DNA of 48,049 nt from Clostridia bacterium (GTDB lineage: Bacteria > Bacillota > Clostridia > Peptostreptococcales > Anaerovoracaceae), in NCBI GenBank assembly GCA_024689085.1, contig JAILDT010000071.1, positions 1 to 48,049 on the forward strand. Direction: 5' to 3'. The notes under the pieces were generated by a model. That model saw only the letters and a list, made by a program, of their open reading frames with translations, was not told the DNA's origin and made no database searches. The position numbers and the translations under genes were made by a program. This document shows, piece after piece, positions 4,417 to 28,484 of the stretch (its first letter is position 1; every line of letters starts with the position of its first letter).

Positions 4417-5564
4417 GGTAACCTCAGTTTCTTCATCTGCTCTTCTGTAATATGGATCACCTTCCCGAGTCCCGGGTCGATCTCCTCGTCGCCGTAGACC
4501 AGCCAGACGGCGTCGATCGGTTCCTCCGGCATCGGGGCGCATCCGTCCGTGAAGATGATCTTGTTGTCGCAGCGCAGGGAAAAGGCGCGCGTCGCTACGT
4601 TGAAGTCGGTGCCGCCTCCGCCCATAAAGACCATCTTGTCGATGTCCTCTTCGGTCCGGATCTCCTGAAATCCGTAGAACATCGTATCGAAACAGCCCGC
4701 CCTGAGACGGGAGAACTGCAGGATGTTTTTGCATTCTCTCAGGAAGTTCCGGAGCAGGTTGTCGTCGACGGATGAGCTGGTGTCGAGGACGATCTCTGTT
4801 TCCGGCATCGGCCAGGTTTCCAGCACAGGCCGCACGATGCCGTCTTCGATCTGCGGATGGATGAGGGACCAGTCCACGCCGTAGTTAATGGTATCCCGGA
4901 GGATCAGCCGCCAGTCGAGAATCGGCTTCCCGTGGCCGATCTGTGCGATGGGCCGCTCGTTCCTGCCGATGGCGGTGCCGGCCTGCTTGCCGTCCCGCGG
5001 CGTAAAGATCTCGATTTCCTCCAGCTCCTCCTCATCCCAGAGGCTGTGGTCATCGTCCATGACTTCGTCGGCCGGGATGATCTGGTCGCCTTCCTCCAGT
5101 TCCGTTTCCTCATCGGACACCGTTTCCGTGCCTTCCAGCATCCCCTCGCTCAGCTCGATATCCAGCTTTTGCGCCATCAGAAGGTCGTAGTAAGCGTCGG
5201 CGTCGTAGTCGATGGCTTCCGGGTAGTCGATGCCACCCTGGATGATTTTCATGCCGTCGCGCTTGAGCAGCTGGTTGATCACCGCATCCGTGGCCTCCCG
5301 CCAGACGACCGGGTCCTTGCCCTGGCCCCGGCGGATGTGATCGAAGGCGATGTGGCAGATCTCATGGGTCAGCAGAAAGGTCCGTTCCTCCTCGGTGAGT
5401 CCTTCCACGTAGGCAGGATTGTAGTAGATGGTCCTGCCGTTGCTGCCCATGGTGCGGACGCGCGCCGTCTCCACGTATTCCACGCTCGCTGCCAGACTGC
5501 CAAAAAAAGGGTATCTGGCGAGCATGCTTTTTTTCGCTGCCTCCATACCCTTTTTCATTACCAT
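4413..5564 (-). CDS. VWA-like domain / putative metallopeptidase (DUF2201/COG3864-like)
   Basis: FLLTHEICHIAFDHIRRGQGKDP (HExxH) with a C-terminal VWA-like segment (EIVLDTSSSVDDNLLRNFLRECKNIL...MGGGGTDFN); follows an AAA+ ATPase gene. Confidence 0.82.
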   Translation of the reverse strand: MVMKKGMEAAKKSMLARYPFFGSLAASVEYVETARVRTMGSNGRTIYYNPAYVEGLTEEERTFLLTHEICHIAFDHIRRGQGKDPVVWREATDAVINQLLKRDGMKIIQGGIDYPEAIDYDADAYYDLLMAQKLDIELSEGMLEGTETVSDEETELEEGDQIIPADEVMDDDHSLWDEEELEEIEIFTPRDGKQAGTAIGRNERPIAQIGHGKPILDWRLILRDTINYGVDWSLIHPQIEDGIVRPVLETWPMPETEIVLDTSSSVDDNLLRNFLRECKNILQFSRLRAGCFDTMFYGFQEIRTEEDIDKMVFMGGGGTDFNVATRAFSLRCDNKIIFTDGCAPMPEEPIDAVWLVYGDEEIDPGLGKVIHITEEQMKKLRLP

Positions 5565-7240
5565 TCCTTTGCGCCCTGTCCGCGCATGGCGTCGAAGACT
5601 GCCAGGAACTCCGGCCCCAGCTTCCGTGCAAAAGCAACCGCCTCGGCTTCATGCTCTCTGTCGACCTGCGAAAGGCCGATCACGGTGGCGTAGCGCTCCG
5701 CCGTATCCAGTTCTTCGATCTCTTTCTCTGTATAATCGCCGGCGAGGACCCGCTCCAGGGTGATGACCGGCTTGCTGCAGAACTGCACGAATTCCTCCGT
5801 GATCTCTTCTCCGATCAGGGACCGCAGCATCTCCGGGGTGCCCGTTGCGTAGAGCATTTTCGAGGCCATCTCCCATTTTCTCGGGTCGGCGTTCGGCTTC
5901 TCGCCGTCGTAGGTGCTGCGCAATGTCTCCCCCCGCTTGTATGCGATGAAGGAGTAGATCGCCGGGTGAATATCGAACTCCCGGGCCCATGCGAGCCACT
6001 TGTCCGTCGTCGTGTTGATATACACGTGGGCGAACCGGTTGAAGAACGGCGCCGCCAGCTGGTTCGCGGCCAGAGAATCCTGCATGTCGTTGCCGGCCGC
6101 CACGACGCGTGCGTTCGGCGGCAGCTTCCACAGGCCGTTGACTTCCTTGTCCAGCACGATGTTGAAGGCCATGCCCTGGATGCTCGGCAGCGCGTTGTTG
6201 ATCTCATCGAAGAAGACCACGTGCAGCTTGTCCGGTTCCGCCTCGCACTTGGCGACCACCTTCTTGTACCAGGTTGGCGGCAGGTCGATCATCTCGCCCG
6301 TCGCCTGGTTGTAGACGCTCCTGCCATTCAGGCTGTCCGGCGTGGCGTTGCGCAGATAGATGATCTCGCAGGTCGGATCGATCTGACGGATGCGCGCGCT
6401 CTTGCCTTCCGAGGACGGTCCGTGCAGGAACACGGCGATGTCGCTTTTGATGGCGCCCCGGATAATATCTTCTTCGCTGACCTGCTTGAAGGTCAGGTCG
6501 TACGGATTTCTTCTCGCTTCGGCGCGTTTGATGTACGCGTCGTATTCGGCCTGCTCCTCCGCCGTCCTCTCGCGCAAAACACTCGGCACGATGTCTCTGG
6601 CGAAACTGCCGTTCAAAAAACGACAGACCTCTGTCTGGCTGAAGTCCCCTTCGTAATGGTTGTCCAGACAGTACTCCTTCACGTAGGACACGATGCGTTT
6701 GCTGATTGCCAGGCCGGCGTCCTCATCGTAATACCACTGCAGCGGCGCGACTTCGAACCACCTGGCCCGCTCCTCGCCCTCCTGCATGCGCACGTACTTG
6801 ATTCCTTTGTATTCGAATTCCTCATCGCCGTCCAGGTAGGTCTTGCCGGTTTTGCGCAGCATGCCCAGTTTGTATTCGTCTTCCAGGAAGCGGCCGATCA
6901 TCTTCTCCGCCAGGGCCTGGGGGTACTCGCCGTACTCCACCAGCCAGCAGCCGCTCATGTCTTTGACCGGTCTGTCGGAGATCTGGCTCACGTCCCCGCA
7001 TGCAAAAGCAGGACGCACGCCGCCGCCCGCGTTGGCGTATCCGACTGCGTGCTCGCCGTCCTCCTTGACGATGCAGACGTCGCCATAGCCCGCCGCGGAG
7101 GACAGCCACCAACTGCCGTTTCCTCCCAGGGCCGCCGCGAAGTCCGTCTCGGGACACCTGCTCCCGGTCTTTCTGATCACGTCCAGCCGCTGGTCGCCAA
7201 AAGCCTGTTCAACGGATAACAGTATGAAATTCACGTTCAT
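5558..7240 (-). CDS. MoxR-type AAA+ ATPase with an unusual N-terminal DUF6273-like region
   Basis: Walker A GPSSEGKS, Walker B VVFFDEIN, sensor-1 region ARVVAAGND; N-terminal region contains GSWWLSS...GGGVRPAF and YGEYPQ...CRFLNGSFA; start trimmed to ATG at 7240 (RBS AGAGAGGAAAG). Confidence 0.82.
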   Translation of the reverse strand: MNVNFILLSVEQAFGDQRLDVIRKTGSRCPETDFAAALGGNGSWWLSSAAGYGDVCIVKEDGEHAVGYANAGGGVRPAFACGDVSQISDRPVKDMSGCWLVEYGEYPQALAEKMIGRFLEDEYKLGMLRKTGKTYLDGDEEFEYKGIKYVRMQEGEERARWFEVAPLQWYYDEDAGLAISKRIVSYVKEYCLDNHYEGDFSQTEVCRFLNGSFARDIVPSVLRERTAEEQAEYDAYIKRAEARRNPYDLTFKQVSEEDIIRGAIKSDIAVFLHGPSSEGKSARIRQIDPTCEIIYLRNATPDSLNGRSVYNQATGEMIDLPPTWYKKVVAKCEAEPDKLHVVFFDEINNALPSIQGMAFNIVLDKEVNGLWKLPPNARVVAAGNDMQDSLAANQLAAPFFNRFAHVYINTTTDKWLAWAREFDIHPAIYSFIAYKRGETLRSTYDGEKPNADPRKWEMASKMLYATGTPEMLRSLIGEEITEEFVQFCSKPVITLERVLAGDYTEKEIEELDTAERYATVIGLSQVDREHEAEAVAFARKLGPEFLAVFDAMRGQGAKEW

Positions 7241-7253
7241 GGTTCTTTCCTCT

Positions 7254-10200
7254 CTAGAAGAAACTGATCTGCGCCGTCTCCGGCAGACCTTCCAGTACCC
7301 CGTGGTCGCGGAGCTTTTCCACGACGGTCTTGTTGACTTTGCCCCGGTCGATGACATCTTCGACCGTCTCATACGGCTGCCGTTCGTATTCACTCGCAAA
7401 AGCAGTCGCGGCCTGTTCGCCCATGCCCGGAATGGCCACGAACGGCAGTACCACCTTGCCATCGTGAACGCGGAACTTCAGGGCGTCGGAAACGCCCAGA
7501 CGCGCCGGCGCGAACTCGTATCCGCGGGCGTACATCTCGTAGGCCACCTCCAGGACCGTGTAGTCGTTCTCGTCTTTCTTGGTGGCGTCCTTACCCATGC
7601 GCTCGATCTCGGCCATCCTGTCTTCCACAGCCTTCTGGCCGCGCAGGATGACGCTGGCGTCGAAGTAGGCCGCCTTTGTCGTAAAGTACACCGCGTAGAA
7701 TTCCAGCGGATAGTAAACCTTGTAATAGGCCTCACGCATGGACATGAGCACGTAGGCCACCGCGTGGGCACGCGGGAACATGTACTTGATCTTGCGGCAG
7801 GAGTCGATGTACCAGTCTGGTACGTCGTGCTCGATCATCAGCTGCTCCTGCTCCTCTGTGACGCCTTTGCCCTTACGGACTTTCTCCATGATGGTGAAGG
7901 CGTCGCCGTTGTCCAGTCCCTTCTTGCGCAGGTAGTTCATGATGTCGTCACGGGTGGCGATGGCTTCCCGCATGGTGGTCACGCCGTTTCTGACCAGATC
8001 CTGCGCGTTGCCCAGCCAGACGTCGGTGCCGTGGGACAGTCCCGAAATACGGACCAGTTCCTCGATGGTCGTCGGCTGAATGTCGTCCAGCATCTGGCGG
8101 ACGAAGGACGTTCCGAATTCGTGGATGCCGTAACTGCCGTGGGTGAACTTGTAGTCTGGGTCCTTGATATCCAGGCCCTCCGTGCCGATGAAGATGGTCA
8201 TGACCTTGTCGTCCTTGATCGGCACGTCCAGCGGGTCGACCCCCGTGAGATCCTTCAGATTCTTGCACATGGACGGGATATCGTGTCCGAGCACGTCCAG
8301 CTTCAGCAGGTTCTCATCGATGGAGTGGTAGTCGAAGTGGGTCGTGATGACCCCCGTCTTCGCGTTGTTGGCCGGATGCTGCACCGGACAGAATTCGTAG
8401 ATCTCGTGATCCCGCGGCACGACGACCACGCCGCCCGGGTGCTGTCCAGTGGTGGCTTTGACACCTTCGCAGCACTGGGTCAGGCGGTCCATCTCCGCGT
8501 TGCTCACCTGCTGTCCCAGTTCCTCGAAGTACTTGGCAACGTATCCGAAGGCCTTGTTGCTTTTGACCGTCGAGATGGTTCCGGCTTTATATACGTTCTC
8601 CGCGCCAAAAATCTCTTCCACGTATTTCTGCGCGGTGCTCTGATATTCATTGGCGAAATTCAGGTCGATGTCGGGCTCTTTGTTGGCCTCGAACCCCAGG
8701 AAGGTCTCGAACGGGATCGTGAATCCCTGTTTCGTGTACGGCGTGCCGCAGACCGGGCAGACCTTATCCGGCATGTCGACGCCGCAGTCGTACTCGCCCG
8801 TCTCGTCCCATTCGATGTTTTTGCAGTGCGGGCAGAGGTAGTGGGCCGGAAGCGGGTTGACCTCGGTGATCCCCGCCATGGTCGCCGCGAAGGACGATCC
8901 GACGGAACCTCTCGAGCCGACCAGATAGCCTGCCTGCATGGACTTATCCACCAGCATCTCCGCCGACCGGTACATGACCGCGTAGCCGTTGTCGATGATG
9001 GAATTGAGTTCCTTGTCCAGTCTGGCGCGGATCGGCTCCGGCAGCGGACTGCCGTACATCTCCGCCGCTCTCTCCTCACAGGTCGTGCGCAGATACTCCT
9101 CGGCCCCGTCGATGTGCGGCGGGAACTTGCCCTCCGGCACCGGCTTCATCGGCTCGATCATATCCGCGATCTTGTTGGTGTTGGTCACAACCACTTCGAA
9201 GGCCTTCTCCTCGCCCAGGTACATGAATTCATCCAGCATCTCCTCTGTGGTCCTGAAGTACAGGCCCTGCCCGCTCTCCGCGTCCTTGAAGTCCTGGCCT
9301 GCCATGATGATGCGGCGGTAGAGGGCTTCCTCTTCGTCGAAGTAGTGTGCGTCGCAGGTAGCCACGACTGGCTTGCCCAGTTTCTCACCGAGGGCGACGA
9401 TCTTCCTGTTGTAGTCCCTCAGCCCTTCTTCGTCCTTGACCATGCCGTTGGCGATCATGAACCGGTTGTTGATGAGAGGCTGGATCTCTAGGTAGTCGTA
9501 CCAGGACGCGATCTGCTCGATCTTCTCCTCGTCCTGTCCCGCCCGGATCGCACTGTAAAGCTCACCCGCTTCGCAGGCCGAACCGAGCAAAAGCCCTTCC
9601 CTGTGCGCTGCAAGGACCGACCTCGGAATCCGCGGCCGGTAATAGAAGTAGTCGATATGGGATTTGGAAATAAGTTTGTATAAGTTCATCAGACCCGTTC
9701 TGTTTTTGGCCAGAATGATAATGTGATTGGTCTTGCGGCCTTTGTAGTCGATGGACCCGTCCTCCCGGATCAGACCCTCATCGTCCAGCAGATACCCTTC
9801 GCATCCAAACAGCACTTTGAGGTTTCCCGCATTCTTCGATGCTTCCGGAAATGCCTGCACGACGCCGTGATCCGTAATGGCGACGGCCGTGTGACCCCAA
9901 TCGTTGAGCCGGCGCATCATGTCCTTGGCCACGATGAGTCCGTCCATGGCGCTCATCTTCGTGTGGCAGTGAAGCTCCACGCGCTTGATCGGCGCCTCGT
10001 CCGTACGCTCCTTCACCTCTGTTTTTTCGATGCTGTCGGCCATGACGGCGACGGCGTTGTCGTAGCGGTCCCACTGGGCCTTGCCTTTGATTTTGACGTG
10101 GGAGCCTTCCGGCAGATACTCCTCGATATCATCCCACTTCTTGTTGTGCACGAAGGCTTTCACGCAGATGCTGTTCTTCTTGTTGGTCACGTAAAGGCTC

Positions 10201-26585: not shown

Positions 26586-28433
26586 TTATTGATTCGTTCC
26601 GAACTGTGTCGACGTCTTGTAGTATTCGTCGAAGGCTGTTCTGTCGAGCACCTTGGTGTCGAGTCCTGCATCCTCTGCAATCTCTACCTCTGTGCTGTAC
26701 GATCCGCTTACCGTCACTGTGATGTCGCTATCCCCTTCGACGACGGTCTTGCCGTCTGCAACGATGGTAACGGTCTTGCCGTCCGCGTCGACGATTTTCG
26801 CGCCATCTGCTGCACTCAGATCAGTAATCGTTGTGTCATCGGTAACGACCCATGTGGATGTGCCGTCAATCGTGACCGTCAGGTTATTCTCTCCTTCTGA
26901 TACGCCGGTCCATGTTGATCCATCCGTCAGGTTCATGCTGGCACTGCTGATTTTATCGGTGTAGACATTGCCCGACATGGTCTGATCGATCGCTGTCAGC
27001 GTTGCGTTGCCGCCATTCTTTCCTTCCGTGCCCCATCCGTTGGAACTGTTGCCCGCGGCATTCAGCAGCTGTACGTTATCGCTGTCGAAATCCAGCGTCG
27101 TATTCTGCAGAATGATGTTCGCCGTCGTATTGGTTACGTAGAACATGGCGCCGTCGGAGATCGCTGTCTTCAGCGTCGAATCCACCGCTTCAAACTCGCA
27201 TGACTGTGAGGAGGCAGTATCCGCGTCGCCCGACATGGACTGATACAAAATCACTCCGTCCTTAATTGGATCGCTGCCTGATGTCGCGTCATTGGTACTC
27301 TCCAGAGTCGAGTTGTTGATCACGATGCGGTTGTACCCTTCGATACCCGCGATCTGGCTGCCTGTTGATGTACCGGTGACGTTATCGATCTCAATATCAC
27401 CCGTCGAGTAGATCAGCGGTGATCCTGAGCCCGCCGTTTCCAGACTGCTGTTCGTCACGGAAATGTATCCGCCGCCTCTGTCTGTAGCCAGCGCCGCGCA
27501 GTGGTCTTTCGCTGTGCTGATGGTCAGCTCGTTGCCGTAGATGACGCCGCCATAGGTCGCGTCCAGTCCTCTGGAATTTCCGCCGTCTTTGGTGGTAATC
27601 TCCACTTTGTTCAGGTAAGCCGTTCCGCTGTCAGTTGCAAAAACACCATTATTTCCTTCTCCCGTGGAACTGATCTTGCTGTCAGAGAGATAGACTTCTG
27701 AGCCCTCGCCGGTACTCAGCACACTGGAATTGATTCCATAGAAGTTGCAGTTGTCTCCGTTGCTGTCATCGCCCGACTTGGTGATATCCGCACCGGTGAC
27801 TTTGAGTACGCCGCCGTTCTGGGCCAGCAGAACGTTCTCGTCTGCCGTCGTGGATTCAATGGTCTCACCATCTGATGTGACTTCCTTACCGTCGGCCGTG
27901 AGCTTACCGGTCACGTCGCCGCTGTAATCGTAGTTGGCAGTATCAGGACCGCCGCCCGGTGCGCCGCTTGGCGGCTGACCAGTTGGAGCTTCCCCACTTG
28001 GTGCCTCACCACTTGGGGCCTCTCCATTTGGCATCTCTGGAGGCTGTCCGCTCGGTGCTTCCCCGCTCGGTGCCTCACCCTGGGCCTGCATGTCACCGTC
28101 TGGCTTCTCCGGCGGCGTCTGGCCATCTGCTGGCGGTTGCCCACTTGGGGCCTCGCCTTCCTGCTTCTCCGCCGAAGCATTTTCGTCCTGCCCATTCTTC
28201 GCAGCGTCGCTGTCTGCTTTTGCCGTCTCTTTCGCCGTATCGCCCTTCAGGTCTGATGGCGAAACGTATTCCCATGTAACCGCAGAGTTCGACGCGCTAT
28301 TATCCGAGTCATCTGACGCTGTCCCCGTACTGCAGCCGGACATCATGAGTGTGAAAGCCGTCAGCATCACCGTCATGACGATGGCAGCGGCTTTTGTCGC
28401 TTTTGTTTTCCTTTTCATCTTCTTTCGGTTCAT
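26586..28433 (-). CDS. Secreted lipoprotein with PG/EAPSG-rich linker and predicted parallel beta-helix (carbohydrate-binding-domain-like)
   Basis: Signal peptide and lipobox (MLTAFTLMMSGCSTG), repeat linker, then Ser/Thr/Asn/Gly-rich beta-helix-like repeats (TKSGDDSNGDNCNFYGINSSVLSTGEGSEVYLSDSKISSTGEGNNGVFA...); RBS GGAGGA before ATG at 28433. Confidence 0.8.
   Translation of the reverse strand: MNRKKMKRKTKATKAAAIVMTVMLTAFTLMMSGCSTGTASDDSDNSASNSAVTWEYVSPSDLKGDTAKETAKADSDAAKNGQDENASAEKQEGEAPSGQPPADGQTPPEKPDGDMQAQGEAPSGEAPSGQPPEMPNGEAPSGEAPSGEAPTGQPPSGAPGGGPDTANYDYSGDVTGKLTADGKEVTSDGETIESTTADENVLLAQNGGVLKVTGADITKSGDDSNGDNCNFYGINSSVLSTGEGSEVYLSDSKISSTGEGNNGVFATDSGTAYLNKVEITTKDGGNSRGLDATYGGVIYGNELTISTAKDHCAALATDRGGGYISVTNSSLETAGSGSPLIYSTGDIEIDNVTGTSTGSQIAGIEGYNRIVINNSTLESTNDATSGSDPIKDGVILYQSMSGDADTASSQSCEFEAVDSTLKTAISDGAMFYVTNTTANIILQNTTLDFDSDNVQLLNAAGNSSNGWGTEGKNGGNATLTAIDQTMSGNVYTDKISSASMNLTDGSTWTGVSEGENNLTVTIDGTSTWVVTDDTTITDLSAADGAKIVDADGKTVTIVADGKTVVEGDSDITVTVSGSYSTEVEIAEDAGLDTKVLDRTAFDEYYKTSTQFGTNQ
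27955..28170 (-). repeat. Tandem 15-bp-period repeats encoding (G/S)(E/Q)(A/P)P(S/N)G
   Basis: Translated GEAPSGEAPSGQPPEMPNGEAPSGEAPSGEAPTGQPPSGAPGG. Confidence 0.85.
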
Positions 28434-28484
28434 ATCCGGATCCTCCAATTCTTTTTTCTAATTGTCTGTCCGGATCTATAATAA

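Follow-up and report, generated by a model that had tools for sequence, protein, structure and literature searches.

The 48,049-nucleotide stretch of a Clostridia bacterium genome analyzed here (the window; contig JAILDT010000071.1) carries on its minus strand a gene for a 560-residue MoxR-type AAA+ ATPase (P0001; 5558..7240, stop codon included, running from 7240 to 5558), which is overlapped by 7 bp by a gene for a 383-residue protein (P0002; 4413..5564, minus strand). Judged from their sequences, the two genes form a module in which a MoxR-clade ATPase with a permuted N-terminal C-type lectin (CLec) domain is paired with a metallopeptidase-VWA protein. In homologues this module is linked to a diversity-generating retroelement (DGR), and we hold the anatomy of the module together with this link with high confidence. 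The likely start of P0001 is the ATG at 7240 (GAGAGGAAAGAACC-ATG), which has a good ribosome-binding site directly after the polC stop codon; the mechanical open reading frame start at 7462, which would entail an out-of-frame overlap with polC, was dropped.

Relatives of the ATPase were found at 54 loci in GTDB species genomes (loci are designated L), with further distant ones in the family of the window's organism and one close relative on an IMG/VR contig. The MoxR-type AAA+ domain occupies 5567..6487 and includes the Walker A motif GPSSEGKS (6398-6421) and the Walker B motif VVFFDE (6203-6220), which, like other AAA+ residues, are invariant or conserved across the homologues. Pfam AAA_5 stays under its cut-off on P0001, and NCBIfam has no model for the ATPase. 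Foldseek searches with the full-length model recover AAA+ proteins, including NorQ of the NorQ-NorD VWA complexes (E about 1e-6). The partner P0002 matches DUF2201_N (E 7.6e-30), a metallopeptidase domain, and the DUF2201 VWA domain (E 6.3e-12). In 11 homologues, the H, E, and H of its HExxH motif (HEICH, residues 67-71, 5352..5366) are invariant, as are the D, S, and S of its metal ion-dependent adhesion site (MIDAS)-type DTSSS motif (residues 261-265, 4770..4784). A preliminary description drawn from the letters alone had named a MoxR ATPase beside a peptidase, and both assignments are supported by the sequence comparisons. Where a locus has sufficient flanking sequence, the VWA-peptidase gene nearly always adjoins the ATPase gene, also in the distant L004-L008 branch. 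Many loci in Bacilli have a 130-residue protein between the two genes (e.g., L051:7911-8303), which the window lacks; this protein weakly resembles the Walker B part of the ATPase and apparently has no Walker A motif.

Order of the halves in the N-terminal domain

Profile comparisons identify the first ~220 residues of the ATPase as a DUF6273/CLec domain with its halves reversed, the C-half lying at about residues 1-80 and the N-half at about residues 98-216. Such a reversal had been proposed for 6595-7140 (residues 34-215 of P0001) in the preliminary description, and the peptides quoted there are present in the minus-strand reading frame. The C-half (7001..7240; LLSVEQ...TDFA...WWLSS...GGVRPAF) is detected by Pfam, which aligns residues 41-79 to positions 128-168 of the 172 in DUF6273 (PF19789); the match reaches an E-value of 4.5e-5 and 23.8 bits (cut-off 23.5) when the N-terminal region alone is searched, and an E-value of 3.1e-4, under the cut-off, with the whole of P0001. 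The N-half (6593..6949; LVEYGEYPQ...FEVAPLQWYYDEDAGLAISK...EVCRFLNGSF) went undetected by Pfam alone in P0001. In an hhalign comparison of the homologues' N-terminal alignment with a canonical DUF6273 profile, built from 36 aligned domains of related genomes, template positions 12-73 matched family columns 213-273 (score 44.4, Prob 86.3, E 4.8e-6), the match falling at residues 165-225. For the C-half, template positions 118-176 fell on columns 30-99 in the same comparison (score 59.8, Prob 95.4, E 1.9e-8). A third, very short alignment, which joins LLSxxE at template positions 98-107 to columns 6-15, runs collinear with this one. Between GEYPQ and the EVAPLQW strand lies an insert of ~50 residues (6767..6916), predicted by AlphaFold as a helix and three strands.

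Because both pieces score above the best of 200 column-shuffled DUF6273 profiles (22.5) and a reversed profile (12.9), the likeness to DUF6273 is beyond chance. The canonical order, N-half followed by C-half, is not that of this family; the best C-half match stands ahead of the best N-half match in 62 of 63 homologues, so that the proposed architecture recurs in other genomes and the family is a permuted relative of DUF6273 rather than a canonical member. In single sequences, the N-half match is weak for the window protein (independent E-value 4.2) and reaches 5e-6 at L080. A single permuted hidden Markov model brought no gain in score over its canonical counterpart (median difference 0.1), since the insert leaves the two pieces as separate local matches; the claim of permutation is thus carried by the order of the matches and not by their total score. 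Neither P0001 nor the full alignment gave a significant match in searches of PDB sequences. The N-terminal alignment did match PDB entries (hemopexin-fold CP4, 2S albumin protein; E 2e-4 to 7e-4) over ~30 positions within the insert, and these were set aside as chance or compositional likeness.

The structure prediction suggested in the preliminary description gave one confident unit for residues 1-243 (AlphaFold; predicted local distance difference test 92.8, predicted template modeling score 0.88), with secondary structure elements in the order expected for a C-half followed by an N-half. Foldseek found no significant match for the N-terminal domain in the PDB and BFVD, a DUF6273 phage protein ranking third (TMq 0.28, E 0.23). 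As Foldseek requires the same chain order, this null result fits a permutation but would also fit another fold, and the CLec assignment accordingly rests on profile comparisons of sequences and on the models published for DUF6273. Were the N-terminal region an unrelated new fold, its DUF6273 likeness would be a short motif match (WWLxS...GVRPA), which would suit both the Foldseek result and the fact that Pfam sees only 39 residues. We give this reading very little weight, as the profiles match in two separate, long stretches whose scores both far exceed those of the shuffled controls, and the variable region of the homologues described below falls exactly at the DUF6273 C-half, as in published DUF6273 targets (PMC11792537).

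The preliminary description had offered either a circular permutation or a domain swap. In a swap, the C-half of one subunit would pair with the N-half of a ring neighbor or a separate partner; segment swapping is known within the C-type-lectin-like superfamily (PMC3779223), and ring-shaped ATPases bring N-domains together. However, the single-chain model of residues 1-243 is compact and confident, and nearly every homologue has both halves in a single chain, stand-alone copies of ~280 residues (L080) among them. The permuted monomer is therefore favored over a swap between two proteins, which we regard as improbable. The permutation probably arose through duplication of a DUF6273 domain and subsequent loss of the outer halves.

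Variable region and retroelement in homologues

DUF6273 is a CLec-type target domain of DGRs, with the variable region (VR) at its C-terminus (PMC10743442, PMC11792537). In the present family, homologues that are otherwise nearly identical diverge over a short patch directly ahead of the residues VRP. L051, L052, and L053 have the same 100-nucleotide template repeat (TR), which starts 1634 bp upstream of the variable patch and has an Avd-like gene on one side and a reverse transcriptase (RT) gene on the other, while L056 and L124 (the latter a homologue with a full DGR, on the IMG/VR contig) have TR/VR pairs of their own. Pooled over the five TR/VR pairs, changes affect 47 of the 131 adenines in the templates as against 3 of 296 other bases (Fisher p 8e-24); a pair at L065 with nine non-adenine mismatches was excluded from the pooled count. 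The RT of the DGR-bearing homologues matches RVT_1 (E 4.8e-18) and has LGNQSSQ and YMDD motifs. The Avd-like protein matches NF033474 over the full length of the model with an E-value of 4.5e-5, under the curated cut-off, and bAvd with an E-value of 0.025. Within the 30 codons of the VR, the DGR group shows 7-11 nonsynonymous and 0-2 synonymous changes, and the rest of the gene has the usual excess of synonymous changes. These comparisons identify the region just before VRP, in a large sister part of the family, as a DGR variable region placed N-terminally on the ATPase, a link that goes beyond what the preliminary description had seen.

L065 features an RT and Avd with an older-looking TR/VR pair. 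The RTs at L058, L060, and L063 are broken, that of L082 is cut by the contig end, and stretches with an RT in the genomes of L046, L048, L061, L062, and L072 contain no matching TR. In the CLec part at L063, the tryptophan codon of relatives corresponds to an in-frame TGA (L063:5018-5020). At L065:5974-13472, three ATPase copies whose variable patches are identical stand in tandem beside one RT/Avd, and at least two copies, mostly diverged, also occur at L046, L055, L061, L062, L069, and L075. A split version at L080:235-3134 has two stand-alone permuted CLec proteins upstream of a CLec-less ATPase. In addition, an RT at L136 is found beside a prepilin-like protein.

Retrohoming of the BPP-1 DGR needs a hairpin downstream of the VR, and phage DGRs feature stems of 7-10 bp with 4-nucleotide loops (PMC3240598). 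The homologues resemble the BPP-1 system (Avd, TR, RT, Mtd) in their Avd-like gene, TR, RT, and adenine-specific VR changes, as well as in an inverted repeat downstream of the VR. In the RT-linked genes this repeat, ATCTCCCCGAACNNAGTGAGGGGA, lies within the reading frame 36-39 nucleotides downstream of the VRP codons and has a 4-5 bp stem and an 11-nucleotide loop, whereas L065 has an RT and lacks the stem. Where the stem varies, pairing is preserved (CCTC/GAGG in L124; TCTCT/GGAGG, with a wobble pair, in the second L046 copy). Ranked by codon rarity among seven-codon windows, the element is second of 635 in L051, of 633 in L058, and of 620 in L082, and third of 617 in L046, but only 65th of 631 in L124. 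This ranking did show constraint on the hairpin at the DNA level, whereas codon identity across lineages, taken alone, was not significant. The intragenic, rare-codon repeat is thus a candidate cis element for retrohoming, and only a candidate because its stem is shorter and its loop longer than in phage DGRs.

In a global survey, DGR variable regions were near-universally C-terminal, probably so that cis-acting DNA can sit outside the coding sequence (PMC8144416), and VRs located at the 5′ end are described as rare in phages (PMC10743442). A search limited to an open-access library turned up neither a permuted CLec target nor a VR on a MoxR ATPase. The family looks like a natural exception to the rule of C-terminal VRs, combining a permuted lectin domain with a candidate rare-codon hairpin inside the gene. 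As in the DUF6273 proteins described as tentaclins (PMC10743442) and from Faecalibacterium prophages (PMC11792537), both halves match by profile and the VR lies at the end of the C-half, ahead of GVRPA. The family differs from them in its reversed halves, its AAA+ fusion, and its insert of ~50 residues, and the window copy differs further in being undiversified.

The copy in the window

The counterpart of the VR in the window (residues 50-79, AGYGDVCIVKEDGEHAVGYANAGGGVRPAF, 7004..7093) corresponds to the segment hypermutated in L051-L053, L056, and L124, and is conserved. Over its 30 codons, L032 and L033 differ by five synonymous and no nonsynonymous changes, and the window and L047 by six and one; the segment is under purifying selection. 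The window's clade, which comprises 15 members and is supported at 100/100, lacks linked RTs. Genes with a linked RT are dispersed over the remaining tree, deep branches included; the DGR may have been ancestral and then lost, or acquired several times. A genome-wide search found neither RVT_1 nor TR-like DNA in the window's genome, but an RT may be missing from this assembly, as it consists of 160 contigs and is 96.8% complete. The inverted repeat is absent from the window gene as well. The window copy is a DGR-less, conserved relative of the diversified homologues.

An RT in the genome of the close relative L032 (L139) was considered as a driver and rejected, as no TR there matches the L032 patch; this RT sits in a prophage-like setting with a CLec-like target of its own. 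P0001 is the sole copy of the family, and the sole DUF6273 match, in its genome, and the distribution within the family is patchy, two genomes of the window's genus having no copy. The ATPase and its partner are flanked by polC on one side and by a LOG-like gene, rimP, and nusA on the other (names assigned by eye from the sequences). In L032 and L033, the module occupies the same polC-rimP site in the orientation opposite to that of the window and L047, through either an in-place inversion or independent insertion.

Possible function and related systems

As a whole, the observations are best explained by a peptidase machine that is driven by ATP and whose recognition head is, or formerly was, hypervariable, a reading we consider probable. 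The mechanism that goes with it is more tentative and falls somewhat short of an even chance. The ATPase would form a ring, as NorQ/MoxR proteins do, and the lectin-like heads on this ring would bind a ligand through their variable face. Binding and ATP hydrolysis would be relayed to the partner through a MIDAS-VWA contact, as in NorQ-NorD, and the metallopeptidase would act on the captured protein or be switched on by it; in this scheme, proteolysis by the partner, whose HExxH is invariant, would depend on the ATPase. In the DGR-bearing relatives, mutated template cDNA would be copied into the ATPase gene near its 5′ end to yield new recognition faces, whereas the window's organism would have retained a single fixed specificity. 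It is conceivable, though on the doubtful side, that the family provides gut bacteria with adaptive, anticipatory targeted proteolysis through a retroelement-hypermutated head, the permutation having shifted the VR to the N-terminus and the retrohoming hairpin having been incorporated into the coding sequence.

Several points weigh against the peptidase machine, beside the Foldseek result and the fragmented assembly already described. The substrate, ring formation, and any proteolysis are things we infer, and the evidence for the DGR comes from homologues ~35-53% identical to the window protein and not from the window itself. Furthermore, the window gene lies inside a housekeeping operon (polC-rimP-nusA), which could point to a housekeeping role.

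MoxR-VWA pairs are classically maturation chaperones. The module could likewise be a chaperone pair, similar to NorQ/NorD or CbbQ/CbbO, that matures one client or inserts a cofactor, with the head as client adaptor and the peptidase domain structural or acting on the client only. That NorQ-NorD complexes (PDB 9qhg, 9qh8, 9qhd) are among the best structural matches would accord with this, as would the conserved window copy in its housekeeping operon. NorQ-NorD shares the AAA+ domain and the VWA partner with the module, and differs in having no peptidase, no CLec, and another client. Hypermutation of the head in homologues, however, is hard to reconcile with a single client. The patchy distribution within the family, with two same-genus genomes lacking a copy, and the tandem arrays of divergent copies also speak against a chaperone pair, which we consider rather unlikely.

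Jumbo phages encode a comparable pair, in which a MoxR AAA+ protein accompanies a VWA protein with an N-terminal metallopeptidase domain (PMC7824862); this pair has no DGR, and no CLec head was seen in the phage relatives listed. The module could on this basis belong to a mobile element or prophage and act in virion assembly, as proposed for the jumbo-phage pairs; phage MoxR proteins match the AAA+ part, and the full-DGR homologue L124 is on an IMG/VR contig. Yet none of the phage matches listed covers the CLec head (at most 49% of the query), and no phage genes were seen next to the window copy, which lies in a core operon, so a phage role appears very unlikely.

DGR-MoxR-vWA systems are already known (PMC7159879, PMC10907252) and are among the systems closest to the module. 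These MoxR-vWA(-VMAP) ternary conflict systems likewise combine a MoxR-type ATPase, a VWA partner, a DGR-diversified CLec, and a peptidase nearby. Their CLec is C-terminal on the vWA or other target, whereas here it is N-terminal on the ATPase itself; in addition, the peptidase domain here is on the VWA protein, and the hosts are Bacilli and Clostridia metagenome-assembled genomes. Inspection by eye of the genes listed around the window and around L051, L056, L065, and L124, with no dedicated hidden Markov model search made, revealed no VMAP, EAD, or Trypco, and neither the ATPase nor its partner matched a defense model in PADLOC. A hypervariable receptor placed directly on an AAA+ motor with a peptidase partner would tie diversification by a retroelement to targeted remodeling or proteolysis in a testable way. 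The window member, with the same architecture and what would be one fixed specificity, may serve as a tractable, non-variable model. Elsewhere in the window, positions 26586-28448 (minus strand) encode a protein that looks secreted and combines GEAPSGQPP-type repeats with a long part rich in serine, threonine, and asparagine.
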